From a virus, in IMG/VR virus record IMGVR_UViG_3300044825_001871, positions 92,236 to 156,235 of that record: a DNA stretch of 64,000 nt; one strand, given 5' to 3'. Of this stretch, positions 52,396 to 62,807 are shown in pieces. The notes beneath the pieces were generated by a model. That model had not been told where the DNA came from, did not search any database, and saw nothing but the letters and a program-made list of their open reading frames with translations. Position numbers and translations under genes: made by a program. Each line of letters starts with the position of its first letter. Within the stretch, counting starts at the first letter, position 1.

Positions 52396-53862
52396 ATGAA
52401 ACTCAAACAACTGATGCTTGCACCTGTTGCTCTGGGAATGGTTGCTCCTGTTGCTGCAAATGCTGCAGACCTCAATATGGCAGCAGTCAACCAATACTCT
52501 TCTGAGCAGGTTACAAGCGTCTCACAACTGTCTGATGTTCAACCCACCGATTGGGCTTATCAGGCACTCAGCAACCTTGTAGAGCGTTATGGTTGCGTTG
52601 CTGGTTATCCCAACGGCACCTATGGTGGCGGTAAAGCAATGACTCGCTTTGAAGCAGCAGCACTTCTAAATGCTTGCCTGGATCGTGTAACTGAAAACAC
52701 TGATGAACTCAAGCGTCTTGCTGATGAGTTCCGCAATGAACTGACTGTAATTCAAGGTTCTGTTTCTAAACTGGAAACTCAGGTTGGTCAACTGGAAGCA
52801 ACCCAGTTCTCTACCACTACCAAACTCCGTGGTGAAGCAAACTTCGTTCTTGGTGGTGTTCCTGGTTATGATACCAAAGGTGGTGATGTAACTCACGCTG
52901 CATTTAACTACGATCTGCGTTTGAACCTGGATACTTCGTTCACTGGTAAGGATCTACTCAAGACCCGTTTGCGTTCTGCTAACTTCAGCAGTGATCCTTT
53001 TGGTTCCAGTTCTTCTCTGTTCAAACTGGATAAAGCAGACAACACTTCCAGTGAAGTTGGCAACAATGTAGTTATTGATCGTCTGTACTATTCATTCCCT
53101 GTGTTCAACGGAAGCACTACTTTGACTGCTGGTGCAGCAGTTCGTAACACTGAGATTGCCTGGATGCCTTCTGCATATAAGTCTGGTATTCTTGACTTCT
53201 TTGCTGTTGCTGGTACTCCTGGTGTTTATAACAAGGCAACTGGTGCTGGTTTTGGTGTTCAGTATGGTAAAAAAGGTATTGTTGCTGGTGTAAACTATGT
53301 TGCACAAGCAGGTCAAGATAGCACTCGTGGTGAGTTTGATGAGACTGGTGCTCTGAATACTCTCGCACAAATTGGTTATCGTGGTACTAACTGGGGTGCT
53401 GCATTTGGTTATCGTTATGGTACTGAAGGCACCCGTGTTCGTACTTATAACGGTTTTGATGGTGCTTCCGGTACTCTGGTTCCTGGGCAAACCTCTAACG
53501 GTTATGCTCTGAACGCATACTGGCAACCTAAGAAGTCTGGTATTGTTCCTTCTGTCTCCGCAGGTTATGGTTGGAACACTGTAAGTGGTACTCCTAGTGC
53601 TGCTACCGATAGTCAGTCTTGGTTTGCTGGTCTTCAGTGGGAAGACGTGTTTGTTGGCGGTAACTCTGCTGGTGTTGCTATCGGTCAAGCACCTACTGGT
53701 GAGAACCTTGAAAAGGCAACGATGCTTGAAATCTTCTATAAGTATCAAGTATCTGACAACATCAGCATCACTCCCGCTATCTTCTATGCTAGCGATAATC
53801 AGCGTCTTGCTGATAACTCCTCTAATTTTGGTGGTGTAATTCAAACTACCTTCAAGTTCTGA
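52396..53862 (+). CDS. Cyanobacterial-type outer-membrane porin (SLH plus OprB-like barrel)
   Basis: 488 residues. The signal peptide ends near ANAAD (about 22-24). An SLH domain follows (LSDVQPTDWAYQALSNLVER at about 46-65, GYPNGTYGGGKAMTRFEAAA), then a coiled coil (about 100-135, LKRLADEFRNELTVIQGSV), then a beta-barrel ending in aromatic TTFKF. This is the architecture of host cyanobacterial major porins, which also mediate iron or solute uptake. GC content and codon use are higher than the glycan genes, pointing to host origin. A strong terminator follows. Confidence 0.93.
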   Translation: MKLKQLMLAPVALGMVAPVAANAADLNMAAVNQYSSEQVTSVSQLSDVQPTDWAYQALSNLVERYGCVAGYPNGTYGGGKAMTRFEAAALLNACLDRVTENTDELKRLADEFRNELTVIQGSVSKLETQVGQLEATQFSTTTKLRGEANFVLGGVPGYDTKGGDVTHAAFNYDLRLNLDTSFTGKDLLKTRLRSANFSSDPFGSSSSLFKLDKADNTSSEVGNNVVIDRLYYSFPVFNGSTTLTAGAAVRNTEIAWMPSAYKSGILDFFAVAGTPGVYNKATGAGFGVQYGKKGIVAGVNYVAQAGQDSTRGEFDETGALNTLAQIGYRGTNWGAAFGYRYGTEGTRVRTYNGFDGASGTLVPGQTSNGYALNAYWQPKKSGIVPSVSAGYGWNTVSGTPSAATDSQSWFAGLQWEDVFVGGNSAGVAIGQAPTGENLEKATMLEIFYKYQVSDNISITPAIFYASDNQRLADNSSNFGGVIQTTFKF

Positions 53863-53928: not shown

Positions 53929-53970
53929 CTTAACCAAACCTTAGTGGACTTTAAGATTGTCTTCTAGTAT
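53929..53970 (+). promoter_or_regulatory. Pho-box-like promoter of pstS
   Basis: CTTAACC (53929-53935) and CTTAGTG (53940-53946) are spaced by 11 bp, with a third related block ACTTTAAG (53948-53955), and TAGTAT (53965-53970) as -10. No -35 box is present. Direct repeats of CTTAACC type at 11-bp spacing are the form of cyanobacterial PhoB/SphR sites. Confidence 0.6.
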
Positions 53971-54010
53971 CATTACTTACGAAGTCAATTCACTTCTAAA
54001 CAAACTTTTT

Positions 54011-54973
54011 ATGAAACTCAAAAACTTTATTGCTATTGGTCTGGTTGCTGCTCCTGCCGCTACTCTTGCCGGATCTACTTTGAATGGTGCTGGTGCTACC
54101 TTCCCTGCACCAATTTATCAACGATGGTTCCAAGATTATGCACGAACTTCTGGGAGTAGGGTTAATTATCAGTCCGTTGGTTCTGGTGCTGGTGTTCGCC
54201 AATTCATTGCGGGAACGGTTGATTTCGCCGCAAGTGACGAACCAATCAAACCCGCAGAAGCGGTAAAGGTAAAGCGTGGTGTTGTTCAAATTCCGATGGT
54301 GGGTGGAACGATTGCTGTTGCTTACAATAAACCTGGATGTAAACTGAAACTGACTCAGAAGCAGACTGTTGATGTCTTCTCTGGACGTATTAAGGATTGG
54401 AAGGCACTTGGTTGTGCTGCTGGTCCCGTGACTGTGGTTCACCGTTCTGATGGTTCTGGAACTACTTTCGCATTCACTAACTCTCTAGATGCATTTGGTG
54501 GTTGGGCTCCTGGTGTCGGCAAGGCAGTCAAATGGCCTACTGGTGTTGGTTCAAAAGGTAACGAAGGTGTTTCTGGAACTATCAAGAACACTGCTGGTGC
54601 GATTGGTTATGTGAACACTGGATTTGTTCGTGCTAATAAGCTCCAAGCCGCTGTACTTCAAAACAAGGCAGGTAAGTTCGTTGGACCTTCTGCTGCAACT
54701 GGTTCCGCTGCTCTAAATGGTATTACTTTGGACTCTAACCTTGCTGGTGAAAATCCCAATCCTGCAGGTGTAAATGCTTATCCTATTTCTACTCTGACTT
54801 GGATTCTTGCATATAAGAAAGGTAATGGTGCAAAAACAGATGATATTCGTGCCGCTATTAATTATGCTCTGAGCACTAATGCACAATCTATTGCTGATGA
54901 TCTTGGATATGTTCCTCTTTCTGGAAGTATCCTAAACAAAGCACGTCTCGCCGTTGGACGTATTGGTAAATAA
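54011..54973 (+). CDS. pstS: Phosphate ABC transporter substrate-binding protein
   Basis: 320 residues from the ATG at 54011 (MKLKNFIAIGLVAAPAATLAG), which gives a signal peptide. Phosphate-binding blocks: GAGATFPAPIYQRW, DFAASDEP and RSDGSGTTFAF. PstS captures phosphate in the periplasm for the host Pst transporter. It is a common cyanophage gene, here with a Pho-box-like promoter. Confidence 0.95.
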   Translation: MKLKNFIAIGLVAAPAATLAGSTLNGAGATFPAPIYQRWFQDYARTSGSRVNYQSVGSGAGVRQFIAGTVDFAASDEPIKPAEAVKVKRGVVQIPMVGGTIAVAYNKPGCKLKLTQKQTVDVFSGRIKDWKALGCAAGPVTVVHRSDGSGTTFAFTNSLDAFGGWAPGVGKAVKWPTGVGSKGNEGVSGTIKNTAGAIGYVNTGFVRANKLQAAVLQNKAGKFVGPSAATGSAALNGITLDSNLAGENPNPAGVNAYPISTLTWILAYKKGNGAKTDDIRAAINYALSTNAQSIADDLGYVPLSGSILNKARLAVGRIGK

Positions 54974-55656: not shown

Positions 55657-55772
55657 ACAAAATTTTTACTGAAAAAGCGGAACGTATTAACGGTTGGGCT
55701 GCAATGATTGGATTTATTGCTGCTACCGGTTCTTACCTTGTTACCGGACAAATTATTCCTGGTGTATTTTGA
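55653..55772 (+). CDS. hli: Short high-light-inducible protein
   Basis: 39 residues. EKAERINGWAAMIGFIAATG keeps the E-x-x-N-G-x-x-A-M-I-G chlorophyll-binding core with Arg replaced by Trp. AAGGAG lies 7 nt before the ATG. A minimal Hli variant with almost no N-terminal extension. Confidence 0.88.
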   Translation: MNKIFTEKAERINGWAAMIGFIAATGSYLVTGQIIPGVF

Positions 55773-55783
55773 TGGAGGTTAAA

Positions 55784-56311
55784 ATGCGTAAAGAACAGTA
55801 TCAAGTTCCTCAAGTACAATTTGTATTTCGTGAAAAAGGTGAATTTGTAACTCGTACAACTGCAGATCTGTTCGATGGAAAGCGTGTGGTCGTATTTAGT
55901 TTGCCTGGTGCTTTCACTCCTACTTGCAGTGCCTATCAGTTACCTGGATTCGAAGAGAAATACGACGACTTTATTAGTCTTGGCATCGACGATATTTACT
56001 GCATCTCTGTTAATGATGGGTTTGTGATGAATGCCTGGGCACAAGACCAGAACATTGAAAAAGTAAAACTCATTCCAGACGGCAATGCTTACTTCACACG
56101 TTCTATGGGAATGCTTGTCAATAAGTCTAACCTTGGTTTCGGTGATCGCTCTTGGCGTTATGCTGCAATCGTGGATAATGGAATCATCGAGAAACTTTTC
56201 ATTGAGGCAGGTCAGCGCGACAATGCCGACACAGATCCTTATGAAGTATCGACACCTGAAAATGTCTATACTTATGTCAAATCTACAATTCTTGAAGAAG
56301 AATTTGTTTGA
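55784..56311 (+). CDS. Peroxiredoxin (Prx5-like)
   Basis: 175 residues from the ATG at 55784, preceded by GGAGG. VVVFSLPGAFTPTCSAYQLP (about 38-57) carries the peroxidatic Cys in PTCS; a GFEEKYDDF helix follows. It reduces hydrogen peroxide or lipid peroxides, fitting the neighbouring photoprotection genes. A longer in-frame extension upstream overlaps hli and is unlikely. Confidence 0.88.
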   Translation: MRKEQYQVPQVQFVFREKGEFVTRTTADLFDGKRVVVFSLPGAFTPTCSAYQLPGFEEKYDDFISLGIDDIYCISVNDGFVMNAWAQDQNIEKVKLIPDGNAYFTRSMGMLVNKSNLGFGDRSWRYAAIVDNGIIEKLFIEAGQRDNADTDPYEVSTPENVYTYVKSTILEEEFV

Positions 56312-56334: not shown

Positions 56335-56360
56335 AAGCGTCCAAAAGGACGCTTTTTTTA
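56335..56360 (+). terminator. Terminator fused to a late promoter
   Basis: Perfect stem AAGCGTCC-aaaa-GGACGCTT (56335-56354) and a T-run that runs into TATAAATA. Confidence 0.9.
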
Positions 56361-56366
56361 TAAATA
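56359..56366 (+). promoter_or_regulatory. T4-type late promoter TATAAATA
   Basis: An exact octamer 24 nt before the C39-like peptidase gene; places the lysis block under late control. Confidence 0.8.
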
Positions 56367-56390: not shown

Positions 56391-57062
56391 ATGACTCTAG
56401 ATCTTCATAACTTTTTCAAATTTTATGATGATAGTAATGTGAATCATGTAGCAGCAGTTCAATGGTTAGAAGATAATCTACCTGCCGAATTTATGGATGA
56501 CTCAGAGACTGAGTGGGTTGGTATTTTTAGAACAAAACCACCAACTCCAGAAGTTCTTGCAGTTCCTTATTTCAACCAAGTAGACAATTACAGAGATGCA
56601 CATAGAACTTGCAACTCTTCATCGTGTGCTATGTGCCTTGCTTTCCTCAAGCCAGGAAGCATCAAAGGTGATGATGAATACGTTAAAAAAGTATTCGCAA
56701 TTGGTGATACGACTGATCACTCCGTACAGACAAAAGTTCTTGCTGGTTATGGAGTTAAGTCTCATTTTAGTTACAATCTTTCTTTTGCTGATATTGATAA
56801 AAGCCTTGATGCTGGGAAACCTGTCGTTATTGGTATTCTCCACCGCGGCTCTTTATCTAATCCTACTGGTGGCCACATGTGTGTAGTTATCGGCAAAACT
56901 CCAGATGGAAAGGGATATTTTGTTAACGATCCATATGGATCTTTAAATGATAATTATACTGGTCCTGTGACTAACGGTAAGAAAACTATTTACACTAAAG
57001 CAGTTCTTAAGCACCGTTGGTGTCCAGGAGGCAATGATGGGTGGGGAAGAATCTTCGATTAA
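56391..57062 (+). CDS. C39-like cysteine peptidase with lysis-type N-terminal module
   Basis: 223 residues. Residues 4-32 (DLHNFFKFYDD..., VQWLEDNLP) are the same module found at the start of the lysozyme at 57161. The C39/papain-like domain (about 60-215) has PYFNQVDNYRDA, the probable nucleophile Cys in RTCNSSSCAM, the His in TGGHMCVVIG and NDPYGS. Likely cleaves peptide bonds in peptidoglycan. No signal peptide; a holin would be needed if it acts from inside. Confidence 0.82.
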   Translation: MTLDLHNFFKFYDDSNVNHVAAVQWLEDNLPAEFMDDSETEWVGIFRTKPPTPEVLAVPYFNQVDNYRDAHRTCNSSSCAMCLAFLKPGSIKGDDEYVKKVFAIGDTTDHSVQTKVLAGYGVKSHFSYNLSFADIDKSLDAGKPVVIGILHRGSLSNPTGGHMCVVIGKTPDGKGYFVNDPYGSLNDNYTGPVTNGKKTIYTKAVLKHRWCPGGNDGWGRIFD

Positions 57063-57174
57063 TTTTAAAAGAAAGATGCTTAAAGTAATTAAGGATCTTA
57101 CAAATAACGGAAAACATAAAGAAGCAAACGAACTTTATCAAAAGTATTTCGGAGGAAAACATGGCAAGAATTGA
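57034..57174 (+). CDS. Small hypothetical protein between the two wall enzymes
   Basis: 46 residues, MMGGEESSINFKRKMLKVIK..., basic and helical. GGAGG lies 3-6 nt before its tandem ATG codons. It overlaps the preceding gene by 29 nt and the following by 14 nt. Confidence 0.5.
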   Translation: MMGGEESSINFKRKMLKVIKDLTNNGKHKEANELYQKYFGGKHGKN

Positions 57175-57853
57175 CTTACATAACTTTTTTAAATTTTATG
57201 ATGAAAAAAATCCTAATCACGTTAAAGCAGTTCAGTGGTTAGAAGATCATTTACCAAATAAGTTTCTTGAAGATAATGTAGACTGGGCTGAAATCTATCG
57301 TGGAAAAAAGTCTAGTGCTGCAGTAGCATCTACATCAACTTCTCCTGCTCCTGCAGCATCTTCTTCACCTGCTCCAGTGGGTGGTGATGATGTGCCAATG
57401 ATGGGAATTAAGTTAATTAAAGAATTTGAAGGATGTCATTTAAATGCATATCCCGACCCTCTTACAGGCGGACTTCCAATTACAATTGGTTGGGGTTCTA
57501 CAAGAGATAAAAATGGACAACCATTCCAAATGGGTGATTCAATCACTCAAGCGGAAGCAGATGAATTGTTAATTACTCAGTGTAAGAACCAGTTCCTCCC
57601 TGCTCTAAGAAAAATTCCACATTGGGGTGAAATGTCAGATGGAAAAAGAGGCGCTCTGCTCAGCTTTGCTTATAATCTTGGTGCCGGTTTTTACGGCGGT
57701 GATAACTTTAATACTATTACTAAACGCCTGAAAAATAAAGAGTGGGATTTAGTTCCCGATGCTCTTTATCTCTATCGCAATCCTGGGTCTAACGTAGAAG
57801 CAGGTTTAGCACGTAGAAGAAAGGCAGAAGGTGAAGCTTGGAAAAAAGGTTAA
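57161..57853 (+). CDS. GH24 endolysin (T4 lysozyme-type muramidase)
   Basis: 230 residues. N-terminal module (IDLHNFFKFYDEKNPNH, VQWLEDHLP) shared with the upstream peptidase, then an Ala/Pro/Ser linker (about 52-78). The GH24 domain at about 83-228 has catalytic Glu in IKEFEGCHLNAYPDP and TIGWGST, and GALLSFAYNLGAG. It hydrolyses the glycan strands of peptidoglycan. Confidence 0.92.
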   Translation: MARIDLHNFFKFYDEKNPNHVKAVQWLEDHLPNKFLEDNVDWAEIYRGKKSSAAVASTSTSPAPAASSSPAPVGGDDVPMMGIKLIKEFEGCHLNAYPDPLTGGLPITIGWGSTRDKNGQPFQMGDSITQAEADELLITQCKNQFLPALRKIPHWGEMSDGKRGALLSFAYNLGAGFYGGDNFNTITKRLKNKEWDLVPDALYLYRNPGSNVEAGLARRRKAEGEAWKKG

Positions 57854-57871: not shown

Positions 57872-58297
57872 ATGGACCCTCAAAAGAAAAAAGAAGCTTG
57901 TATGAGTCAAATTATTCGTATTGCGATTTTGGGTTGGTCTGCCGCACTTCTTACGGCAAGTTATGCTGGTGCTCTTGCTAAGATGGACCCAACATTTATA
58001 GCAACGGTGTTTACTGCATCTGCTGCTACTTTTGGAATTAATACTATGAAGAAAGGTGGAGATGATGATGATGAAAAAAAGACTGAAGCAAAAAGAGAGG
58101 AGTTTGTAGAAACACCTCCAACACCTTCTACAGAGGCAGTAGTAGAACCAGTAGTAGAGGCAGTAGTTGAAGAAATAACTGTCGAACAACCATTGGTCCA
58201 AACTGGTTATAAAGAAGAAACTTCTCTTGAAGAAAGAGTTGAAGCTTTAGAAGCAAAAGTTGATGAAGAAAAACCCTATTCAAGAGGAGATCTCTAA
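57872..58297 (+). CDS. Two-span membrane protein, holin candidate
   Basis: 141 residues (a start at 57902, MSQIIRIAILG, is also possible). Two membrane segments, IIRIAILGWSAALLTASYAG (about 14-33) and FIATVFTASAATFGI (about 42-56), precede a long acidic tail (about 60-141). Position directly after two wall hydrolases suggests a holin; this is inference. Confidence 0.7.
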   Translation: MDPQKKKEACMSQIIRIAILGWSAALLTASYAGALAKMDPTFIATVFTASAATFGINTMKKGGDDDDEKKTEAKREEFVETPPTPSTEAVVEPVVEAVVEEITVEQPLVQTGYKEETSLEERVEALEAKVDEEKPYSRGDL

Positions 58298-60451: not shown

Positions 60452-60554
60452 AGAAGAAAAGGATAATATTTTTCTAGAAATTCTTTATAATGTTTTAGTT
60501 CAATTGCCAGCAGTGATTGTTGTGTGGATTATTTCTAAATTTACTTCAGATTGA
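60420..60554 (+). CDS. Small membrane peptide
   Basis: 44 residues, charged N-terminus (TKEKRKEEKDN) and one membrane helix (VLVQLPAVIVVWIISKF). Its end overlaps the 3' end of the convergent minus-strand gene by 9 nt. Confidence 0.55.
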   Translation: MTTAPTKEKRKEEKDNIFLEILYNVLVQLPAVIVVWIISKFTSD

Positions 60555-61403
60555 AAACTTAGCAGATAATTTTTTAGCAATCTTTTTAGCGGGGGCAAAG
60601 AGAGACTTAAATCTTTCTTTGCCTTCTTTTGTGAATTTATCTTTGATAATATCATCAATAATAATTTTATTATCAATCTCATAGAGAGCATTGATTTCGA
60701 CTTGATCGCGGATATATTGTTCTACATTAGTTACTTGTTCTATTAGACGAGTTCCTTCGGAAGAGTATTCGAAGATATCAATGTGCCCACCTTCTGCTAG
60801 GACGTAATGCAAAACTGGTTTGACTTGTTTGATTTTAATCTTAAACTTATTCTTTGTTGCTTCTTTGATGATTGGTTCCGCTGCATTTTTAACTACATTC
60901 AAAACTGTTGTAGATACCATTGTTGCCGCAGTAGTTACTACTGCGACAGCACCAGCCGTAGCAACAAGAGAAGGATCAGGTAAATTAATATCGATTCCAC
61001 TGATAGTAAAGGTTGGTGTAGTTGGTTTATCTGCAGGTATTTCTGCTATTGGAGTTTGTGGTTGTTGAGTTAATTGTTGAACAGCAGGTGGAAGTTCTGG
61101 TGGTTTAGTATCTGGTAATCCTCTTTCTTTTGGTTTTTCTTCCTGCTGTTGTTTTTCACGATCTGCTTTTACAGCAGCATCAAATTCTTCTTGTGTTGGT
61201 ACATTAATTACAGGATAAGGAATTTTTGGACTTGGCATTTCAAACACTGGTAATGCCAATCCTTTAGTCACTGGAGCATCTATACTTTGTGATATTGGTG
61301 GTTCTATTTTTGGAATAATACTTGGACCACTAATACCAATTTTTGGTATTTCGGACTTTATTGTGGTTATATTAGTACTACTTAGTTGTTGTATTGGTTC
61401 CAT
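60546..61403 (-). CDS. Hypothetical protein of the minus-strand operon, with internal hydrophobic segment
   Basis: 285 residues. The first 130 residues are rich in Pro, Ile, Ser and Gln (PKIEPPISQSIDAPV, a Lys/Glu/Gln stretch near 80-92). A hydrophobic segment, SLVATAGAVAVVTTAATMV, is at about 149-167. The C-terminal 100 residues are charged (DQVEINALYEIDNKII...) and end in a basic helix (APAKKIAKKLSAKFSI). It has no signal peptide. Last gene of the four-gene operon, overlapping the one upstream by 26 nt. Function unknown. Confidence 0.75.
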   Translation of the reverse strand: MEPIQQLSSTNITTIKSEIPKIGISGPSIIPKIEPPISQSIDAPVTKGLALPVFEMPSPKIPYPVINVPTQEEFDAAVKADREKQQQEEKPKERGLPDTKPPELPPAVQQLTQQPQTPIAEIPADKPTTPTFTISGIDINLPDPSLVATAGAVAVVTTAATMVSTTVLNVVKNAAEPIIKEATKNKFKIKIKQVKPVLHYVLAEGGHIDIFEYSSEGTRLIEQVTNVEQYIRDQVEINALYEIDNKIIIDDIIKDKFTKEGKERFKSLFAPAKKIAKKLSAKFSI

Positions 61404-61947
61404 TTGGATACCTCACAACTACGTCAGCACAGATTTTGTAGTATGGACTATCGGGATGAAATGTAATTCCTGTCTTAATCGCCTCACCGCATTTTAATAA
61501 TCTAACTAATTCAAAATCTAATCTTGCTTTATCAGTTTCTGCTTGCTGTCTGGCAATTTCAGTTGCTGCTCTTTTTCTGCACAAGTCCATTAGATTCACA
61601 TCCAATGGAATATTCAAACCAGCAGAAATTCCCCAGTTACCATTTCTTGAAGCAAAACTTTCTGGATCATCACTATTATTGCCACTATGCATTAAAAACG
61701 GGGAGATACTGAATGTTGCTCCTTGACAACTAACTCCACCACCATAAGTATTTAAAGCATAAGGACCTTGTAATACCTGAACCGCCTGGTTTGTTACGTT
61801 ACCAGTAGCAGATGCAGAAGGACCAGCAATATTAGTATTAGAAGGAGCGGGAGTGCTTTGTGCAAATGCAGTCCCTGTTGAAATTATTGCGTAAAGACAG
61901 AAATTGATGTAGTGGTTGATTGAGTTTCTGTGGTGCGATCTATCCAT
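61378..61947 (-). CDS. Secreted hypothetical protein of the minus-strand operon
   Basis: 189 residues. A signal peptide ends at STGTAFAQ (about 23-30). The mature protein is Ser/Asn/Thr/Gly rich (PAPSNTNIAGPSASATGNVT) with GISAGLNIPLDVNLMDLCRK and a helical part (ARQQAETDKARLDFELVRL), and Cys at about 79, 128, 157 and 176. It may form an exported complex with its neighbours. Its start overlaps the upstream gene by 64 nt. Confidence 0.72.
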   Translation of the reverse strand: MDRSHHRNSINHYINFCLYAIISTGTAFAQSTPAPSNTNIAGPSASATGNVTNQAVQVLQGPYALNTYGGGVSCQGATFSISPFLMHSGNNSDDPESFASRNGNWGISAGLNIPLDVNLMDLCRKRAATEIARQQAETDKARLDFELVRLLKCGEAIKTGITFHPDSPYYKICADVVVRYPNGTNTTTK

Positions 61948-62243
61948 GTCTCTTTTGCCACTCCAGGGCCAAGGTAGGTTTCTGAAAACTGGAATGGAGC
62001 ACCTTGAGTCATAATTGAATACCCAGCACCCCGCTGAGGTACACCAGGAATGTTAATGTTAGTTCCAGTTACAGTATACGATTCGCCAGTTGTATATTCA
62101 ACTTGACGAATTGTTTCTATTACTTTTGTAGTTGATTCTGTGGTTGCATTGATTGTACCCCTAGTAAAATTAGGCACAACACTTTCAGCTAGGGCAGGAC
62201 AAGAAAACCCTAGCAGGAGCAACCCTGCTAGGATATTTTTCAT
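61884..62243 (-). CDS. Secreted hypothetical protein, paralogue of the next upstream gene
   Basis: 119 residues. Signal peptide MKNILAGLLLLGFSCPALAE. The mature part shares the order SYTVTGTNINIPG..., YSIMTQGAPFQFSET and a Thr/Ser-rich end with the protein at 62240-62731. Beta-strand-rich; could be a surface fibre, pilus-like or envelope protein. Overlaps the upstream gene by 4 nt. Confidence 0.75.
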   Translation of the reverse strand: MKNILAGLLLLGFSCPALAESVVPNFTRGTINATTESTTKVIETIRQVEYTTGESYTVTGTNINIPGVPQRGAGYSIMTQGAPFQFSETYLGPGVAKETWIDRTTETQSTTTSISVFTQ

Positions 62244-62731
62244 TTGAATACGCTCAGTTCAATACTACGTTGTCCTGTAGCAGTAGTACCAGCACCACCA
62301 GCAGTAACAGTAGGAACACCTGTGGCAGAGAGAGTTCCTGCGAGTGAACCTTTATCTCCACCTGGTTGAGTGATACTATCACCATAAAGATTTGGCGAAC
62401 CAACAACACCATTAGTAACAGTTTGAGAGGTTACTGGTACATCACCGATGGCAGCAGTTTCTGAAAATGTGAATGCTTGTCCATCAGTATTGATTTCATA
62501 AGTTCCGTCAGTGATAGATGCTGGGGTTGTTGCGGAACCAGAACCAACTCCACCGAGTGTAGTTACTTTAATATTCGTTCCTGATGCTGAGTATGAACTA
62601 CCAATTCTTGTAGATTGAATCGCAGCACCATCAACTTTTAATTGGACGGAATCAGTAATTCTTGATGTAATTTCAGCAGCATTAACTGGAATGGTAAAGA
62701 ATAACGAAAAGGCTAATAGAAGTCTTTTCAT
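62240..62731 (-). CDS. Secreted hypothetical protein, first gene of the minus-strand operon
   Basis: 163 residues from the ATG at 62731 (complement), with signal peptide MKRLLLAFSLFFTIPVNAAE. The mature part has SYSASGTNIKVTTLGG, YEINTDGQAFTFSET and a Gly/Thr/Ala-rich C-terminus (PTVTAGGAGTTATGQRS). Longer upstream extension in frame (to 62821) has no signal function and crosses the psbA promoter. Paralogue of the next gene. Confidence 0.75.
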   Translation of the reverse strand: MKRLLLAFSLFFTIPVNAAEITSRITDSVQLKVDGAAIQSTRIGSSYSASGTNIKVTTLGGVGSGSATTPASITDGTYEINTDGQAFTFSETAAIGDVPVTSQTVTNGVVGSPNLYGDSITQPGGDKGSLAGTLSATGVPTVTAGGAGTTATGQRSIELSVFK

Positions 62732-62778
62732 TTTCTTGTTGTGATAAACACTATTCTTATTTAGCAGGATAAAGGTGG

Positions 62779-62807
62779 TTGACACAGGCGGCAAACCGTA
62801 GTATGAT
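62779..62807 (+). promoter_or_regulatory. psbA: Sigma70-type promoter upstream of psbA
   Basis: TTGACA (62779-62784), 17-nt spacer, TATGAT (62802-62807). The leader to psbA is about 160 nt and contains the inverted segments CACCCGTT and ATGGGTGT near 62870-62888. No strong dyad lies over the promoter. Confidence 0.75.

Follow-up and report, generated by a model that had tools for sequence, protein, structure and literature searches.

The final 64 kb of a cyanophage record totalling 156,235 bases, hereafter the window, contained one operon on the minus strand, which raised the question of what function a separate set of mostly exported proteins performs for the virus. The operon (60546–62731) was composed of four genes, g1 to g4, and was flanked by small plus-strand genes on one side and psbA on the other. 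The first gene, g1 (62240–62731, minus strand), started from an ATG at 62731 and encoded a putatively secreted protein of 163 aa. It was followed on the same strand by g2 (61884–62243; 119 aa), g3 (61378–61947; 189 aa), and g4 (60546–61403; 285 aa). The products of g2 and g3 were likewise predicted to be secreted, that of g2 being beta-rich, and g4 encoded a Pro-rich protein with one transmembrane segment. The operon is interpreted here as the envelope-disrupting arm of a marine cyanophage lysis module, acting at the outer-membrane step, and the chances that this reading is correct are judged to be about even.

Successive genes of the operon overlapped by 4 nt (g1/g2), 64 nt (g2/g3), and 26 nt (g3/g4), exactly as an earlier sequence-only reading of the window had described for four minus-strand genes beside psbA, and the first 64 nt of g3 were shared with g2 out of frame. 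The remaining minus-strand ORFs of at least 100 aa all overlay plus-strand ORFs, in line with the description of the locus as the sole minus-strand operon. The arrangement was not a product of chance, because the order and direction of g1–g4 recurred in 118 metagenomic loci and those of g1–g2–g3 in about 280. A strong hairpin, CCTAGCAGGAGCAACCCTGCTAGG, was located at 62207–62234 within the signal-peptide codons of g2, shortly after its start; it could serve the translational control of g2 or be a chance occurrence.

As a gene set, the operon was not new. Significant profile matches were obtained to phrog_564 (g1), phrog_650 and Pfam DUF6322 (g2), phrog_848/1755 (g3), phrog_9426/570 (g4), and, for a further gene of the window, DUF6450 (PF20048), and all of these PHROG and DUF families were listed as function unknown. 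The statement of the sequence-only reading that no known family could be recognised was thus incorrect, since g1–g2–g3–g4 also corresponded, by annotation and profiles, to T4-GC 237–236–235–234 in Syn33 and P-SSM2, with homology, a conserved g1–g2–g3 order, and an adjacent g4. A cluster of T4-GC 218, 219, 234, 235, and 237 was reported in all but one (S-PM2) of 16 cyanomyoviruses, and it was labelled hypothetical and supposed to be 'clustered for functional reasons' (Sullivan et al. 2010, PMC3037559). The proteins g1, g3, and g4 and the DUF6450 protein belonged to GC 237, 235, 234, and 218 of this cluster, respectively, the assignment of T4-GC 218 to DUF6450 being a profile match of the present analysis, and GC 236, which corresponds to g2, was located between 235 and 237. 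However, g4 of the window was flipped into the direction of the operon, whereas it was convergent with g1–g3 in most marine phages. The article gave no function for the cluster, and a T7-like counterpart, a late promoter, and a link to lysis were not found in its text. In the literature searched, neither the names DUF6322 and DUF6450 nor functional experiments on g1–g4 or DUF6450 were found.

The protein features were largely preserved among relatives. Sec-type signal peptides with an A-x-A-type cleavage site were present in 267 of 268 relatives of g1, 342 of 435 of g2, and 70 of 71 of g3, in agreement with the earlier proposal of three signal peptides. The proposed paralogy of g1 and g2 also held: the two window proteins matched each other by BLASTP (E = 1e-5), their profiles detected each other's families with E values down to 1e-27, and both carried the pattern SYxxxGTNI...GxxFxFSET. 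In g3, the cysteines C74, C123, C153, and C173 were invariant in 71 of 71 aligned relatives, as expected for a disulfide-bonded periplasmic protein, which g3 is predicted to be. In the P-SSM2 group (P-SSM2 itself being L010, 5001–6104), g3 contained an insertion of about 90 residues between the beta part and the helix, and the length of the g3 insert varied by clade. The fourth protein, g4, showed the Pro-rich N-terminus and the hydrophobic segment described for it earlier; the segment was single, spanned residues ~146–164, and was followed by a basic stretch.

The AlphaFold model of g2, built from 54 sequences, contained long beta hairpins with strands at residues 28–51 and 94–118 (pLDDT 78, pTM 0.34). 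When the model was compared with solved structures, it resembled the long beta-hairpins of oligomeric pores with a best Z of 4.2, which was not significant. The assignment of g2 to a pore-forming-toxin fold was rejected, as this Z value lay among those of common long hairpins. The BFVD matches of g2 at E <= 0.001 were mostly relatives from cyanophages and marine phages, and one other match fitted poorly. For g3, only a 42-residue helix (117–158) was well predicted in a model with a pLDDT of 64 and a pTM of 0.38 overall; a TolC-like fold, suggested by eye, was rejected given this poor model, in which the helix alone was matched (best Z 3.8). A sequence search of solved structures (PDB) gave nothing significant.

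One alternative is that g1 and g2 are fibre-like or decoration proteins of the virion, attached by g3 and g4 and used at entry. The beta-rich model of g2 is consistent with this adsorption role, as are a late promoter motif at g1 and the location of the T7-like cassettes directly after tail-fibre genes. However, the Sec signal peptides of g1–g3 would not be expected on components of tailed virions, whose assembly is cytoplasmic, and in T4-like phages the genes form a separate antisense operon. Homology to tail or adsorption proteins, which the sequence-only reading had named as the result that would make these ordinary structural genes, was sought in Pfam, PHROGs, and PDB sequences, where no structural, tail, or fibre family was matched, and by fold comparison, where g2 reached a Z of at most 4.2. 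In addition, the cluster was still labelled hypothetical in the text of a study that included S-SM1 virion proteomics (Sullivan et al. 2010, PMC3037559). The virion proteomes of S-CREM1, S-CREM2, and S-SZBM1 provide no test of this role because these phages lack g2 and g3. Taken together, a virion function is considered quite unlikely, and the lysis role is retained as the preferred reading.

A T4-type late promoter motif, GCTAAATA, was located on the minus strand at 62758–62765, ~33 nt upstream of the ATG of g1. On the plus strand, a sigma-70-like promoter, TTGACA-17-TATGAT (62779–62807), identified by consensus match only, was directed towards psbA and diverged from the late motif of the operon. 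When the late motif was scored as [AC]TAAATA at −50 to −20 of the start in distinct T4-like loci, with shuffles providing the expectation, it was found upstream of g1 in 171 of 212 loci against 13 expected, whereas no enrichment was found upstream of g2, g3, or g4 in T4-like loci. The window contained three minus-strand [AC]TAAATA sites, of which only that at 62758–62765 preceded an ORF, and 14 plus-strand matches that preceded genes. Since the motif occurred at g1 alone, g1–g4 are predicted to form a single late transcription unit; the late promoter motif at g1 is a new result of this analysis. The expression timing of g1–g4 was sought in published transcriptomes; no values for these genes were found in main-text passages of the P-HM2 study, and the published S-PM2 transcriptome concerns a phage without the module.

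The g1–g4 cluster occurred in hundreds of marine T4-like cyanophages, and tblastn matches were obtained in 462 phage records for g3, 385 for g2, and 263 for g1, practically every record being that of a Synechococcus, Prochlorococcus, or marine phage. Among about 480 viral loci compared for layout, g1–g2–g3 was convergent with g4 in 160, all four genes ran in the same direction, as in the window, in 118, and T7-like cyanophages carried g4–DUF6450–g2–g3 without g1 in 137. In P-SSP7, P-SSP3, and S-TIP37, the last of these layouts was flanked by the tail-fibre genes on one side and the small terminase gene on the other, and in P-SCSP1u it occurred with g4 inverted. The counterpart region of T7 is occupied by its holin gene (17.5) and its spanin genes (18.5/18.7; Rz/Rz1). 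The g2/g3 overlap measured 64 nt at 150 of the 176 T4-like loci, and g2 and g3 also overlapped at 108 of the 109 T7-like loci. The relative frame of the two genes was the same throughout, with g3 read out of frame with g2 in T4-like and T7-like phages alike. That two unrelated virus families have such an arrangement in common speaks for transfer of the cassette between them and for a joint function of its predicted products. Many marine T4-like phages (~80 matches) had a further gene, T4-GC 219 (phrog_605; L009, 6441–7010; 189 aa), that separated g4 from DUF6450 and was found neither in the T7-like cassettes nor in the window.

A scan of cellular genomes gave 18 matches, which came from MAGs, single-cell genomes, and a single isolate assembly and in every case showed a phage-type gene order. 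A host origin of the operon was rejected, as these matches were taken as phage DNA and no host copy was seen. The flavobacterial RefSeq isolate Nonlabens xiamenensis 1Q3 held a g1–g2–g3/g4 cassette on a contig of 188,235 bases (L501; NZ_RMVE01000006), which is probably cyanophage DNA in the assembly. The spread of the cassette among unrelated phages, together with a position that varies between genomes (PMC3037559), is compatible with a mobile cassette of unrelated or selfish role, as was suggested in 2010 from a nearby 'plasmid stability' gene. This gene was neither seen at the window locus nor annotated in the T7-like cassettes, and the widely retained core of the cassette, which consists of exported proteins together with a membrane protein of two segments, speaks against a selfish element, which is therefore regarded as very improbable.

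The lysis role was suggested by genes located ~2.2 kb from the operon. Three consecutive plus-strand genes encoded a Peptidase_C39_2 protein (56391–57062), a predicted peptidoglycan hydrolase matching the endolysin family phrog_10051 and the second hydrolase of the window, an endolysin of the Pfam family Phage_lysozyme (57161–57853), and the DUF6450 protein of the T4-GC 218 family (57872–58297), which started 19 nt past the lysozyme gene. A late promoter motif, TATAAATA (56359–56366, plus strand), lay upstream of these genes, 31 nt from the C39 endolysin gene. Both genes were present at 43 loci; at 39 of these, the window included, DUF6450 started 1–19 nt past the end of the phage lysozyme gene. 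The window DUF6450 protein had two hydrophobic segments with mean hydropathies of 1.7 and 1.4; its relatives also had two, and gene 43 of P-SSP7 was annotated with two TMHMM segments. Class II holins have two membrane segments, and DUF6450, being small, two-segmented, and adjacent to an endolysin, is a candidate holin, although this assignment is a guess from sequence features. The link to lysozyme was found mainly in the clade of the window; the majority of marine T4-like phages had genes such as hsp20, DNA polymerase, or photosynthesis genes beside the cluster, where no lysozyme gene was seen.

Upstream of the hydrolases, the window contained a gene for an SLH/OprB-type porin (52396–53862) adjoining PstS (53957–54973), possibly paired outer-membrane and periplasmic phosphate-uptake genes, and a phage-encoded peroxiredoxin (Redoxin, phrog_2281; 55694–56311) was located between PstS and the endolysin genes. 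The porin and PstS genes, the export of the operon products, and the non-significant resemblance of the g2 model to hairpins of oligomeric pores (best Z 4.2) would suit a non-lytic remodelling of the infected cell envelope, by a nutrient-uptake pore or surface layer or by the blocking of superinfection. However, the promoter motif was of the late type, whereas genes for uptake or exclusion should be expressed early. A non-lytic function is also disfavoured by the constant association with DUF6450, seen in both virus families, and by that with lysozyme, seen in one clade. Such remodelling is thus considered unlikely.

The association was extended to 22 named cyanophages, whose whole genomes were searched for g2, g3, and DUF6450, the g2/g3 status of S-TIM5 being taken from a separate profile search. 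All three were present in 14 (P-SSP7, P-SSM2, P-SSM4, P-HM2, P-RSM4, S-SSM7, S-SM1, S-SM2, S-RSM4, Syn1, Syn9, Syn19, Syn33, and S-TIM5), and all three were absent, in the sense of falling below the cut-off, in eight (Syn5, P60, S-PM2, S-CBS4, PSS2, S-CREM1, S-CREM2, and S-SZBM1), an agreement that was partly inflated by common ancestry. Four of the latter (S-PM2, S-CREM1, S-CREM2, and S-SZBM1) were T4-like isolates that jointly lacked the three genes. The eight phages without the module must lyse their hosts by another route. The sharing of the cassette with T7-like phages, the DUF6450–lysozyme link, and the co-occurrence of g2, g3, and DUF6450 are new results of this analysis.

The proposed mechanism starts from gene content and order, their conservation, the late promoter motif, the signal peptides, and the linkage to DUF6450 and lysozyme, all of which are established by the sequence data. 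From these, we infer the localisation of each protein, complex formation, and membrane rupture, as well as the roles of DUF6450 as a holin and of g4 as an anchor. The operon would be transcribed late in infection from its own late promoter, and g1, g2, and g3 would be exported by the Sec pathway. The beta-rich g1 and g2 would then probably reside at the outer membrane, g3 would be a periplasmic protein that has a long helix and is stabilised by disulfides, and g4 would lie in the inner membrane, from which its Pro-rich segment could span the periplasm. The candidate holin DUF6450 and the lysozyme and C39 hydrolases would first clear the inner membrane and the peptidoglycan as barriers. With g4 as their anchor, the exported proteins would then rupture or permeabilise the outer membrane, so that the job of spanins would be done by unrelated proteins. 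In a bolder version, which is possible but doubtful, g1–g4 and DUF6450 would together form a multi-protein machine that ruptures the outer membrane independently of spanins. It would have been exchanged between the T4-like and T7-like cyanophages and would possibly work through an oligomeric outer-membrane beta pore and not through membrane fusion. The sequence-only reading had offered a surface structure or modification of the envelope during infection; the second of these was favoured by the signal peptides, the four invariant cysteines of g3, and the late-type motif at g1, as well as by the association with lysozyme and a holin-like gene, while no evidence supporting a surface structure was found.

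A large flux of the ocean carbon cycle passes through the lysis of Prochlorococcus and Synechococcus by viruses, and to our knowledge no gene was previously known or proposed for outer-membrane breakage by viruses of ocean cyanobacteria. So far, the module is the strongest candidate for this step. No spanin gene was detected in 20 Prochlorococcus and Synechococcus phages, for which a fragile host outer membrane was suggested (Kongari et al. 2018, PMC6139136). Thirteen of the phages on that list that were tested here carried g2 and g3 (P-SSP7, P-SSM2, P-SSM4, P-HM2, Syn1, Syn9, Syn19, Syn33, S-RSM4, S-SM1, S-SM2, S-SSM7, and P-RSM4). The module, found in most of the spanin-less phages checked and in two unrelated virus families, therefore offers a testable alternative to the fragile-membrane idea.

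The module was compared with the known spanin types. A lipobox-like motif, the mark of an o-spanin, was found in 0 of 268 g1, 1 of 435 g2, and 1 of 71 g3 sequences, and the 'GFSC' of g2 was rejected as a lipobox because it was not conserved across the g2 family. The uncleaved N-terminal segment and periplasmic coiled coil of an i-spanin were not recognised either: the signal of g3 was predicted to be of the cleavable type in 70 of 71 sequences, and the segment of g4 was central to C-terminal with basic residues after it, so that its predicted topology would be the reverse of that of an i-spanin. The lipobox and C-terminal membrane segment that a unimolecular spanin combines in one protein were absent from g1–g3. 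The overlapping, embedded, or adjacent gene arrangement of spanins was found in the conserved 64-nt out-of-frame overlap of g2 and g3. The module is not filed as a spanin because it lacks the defining sequence features of both spanin types, having no lipobox and the wrong anchors.

Rz/Rz1 (of lambda, and 18.5/18.7 of T7) resembled the module in several respects: an out-of-frame overlapping pair of exported genes, cysteines in the periplasmic helical partner, one Pro-rich partner, and, for T7, the same slot in T7-like genomes. However, Rz/Rz1 combines a lipoprotein with an N-terminal membrane anchor, whereas the module carries cleavable signal peptides without a lipobox and has four partners in place of two, and no sequence similarity was found between them. 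The unimolecular spanin gp11 of T1 shares with the module a beta-rich periplasmic part, which is predicted for gp11 as well (PMC6139136), but gp11 joins a lipobox and a C-terminal membrane segment in a single protein and has no periplasmic cysteine. On the best reading of these sequence comparisons, the module would be spanin-like in role while not being a spanin by sequence.
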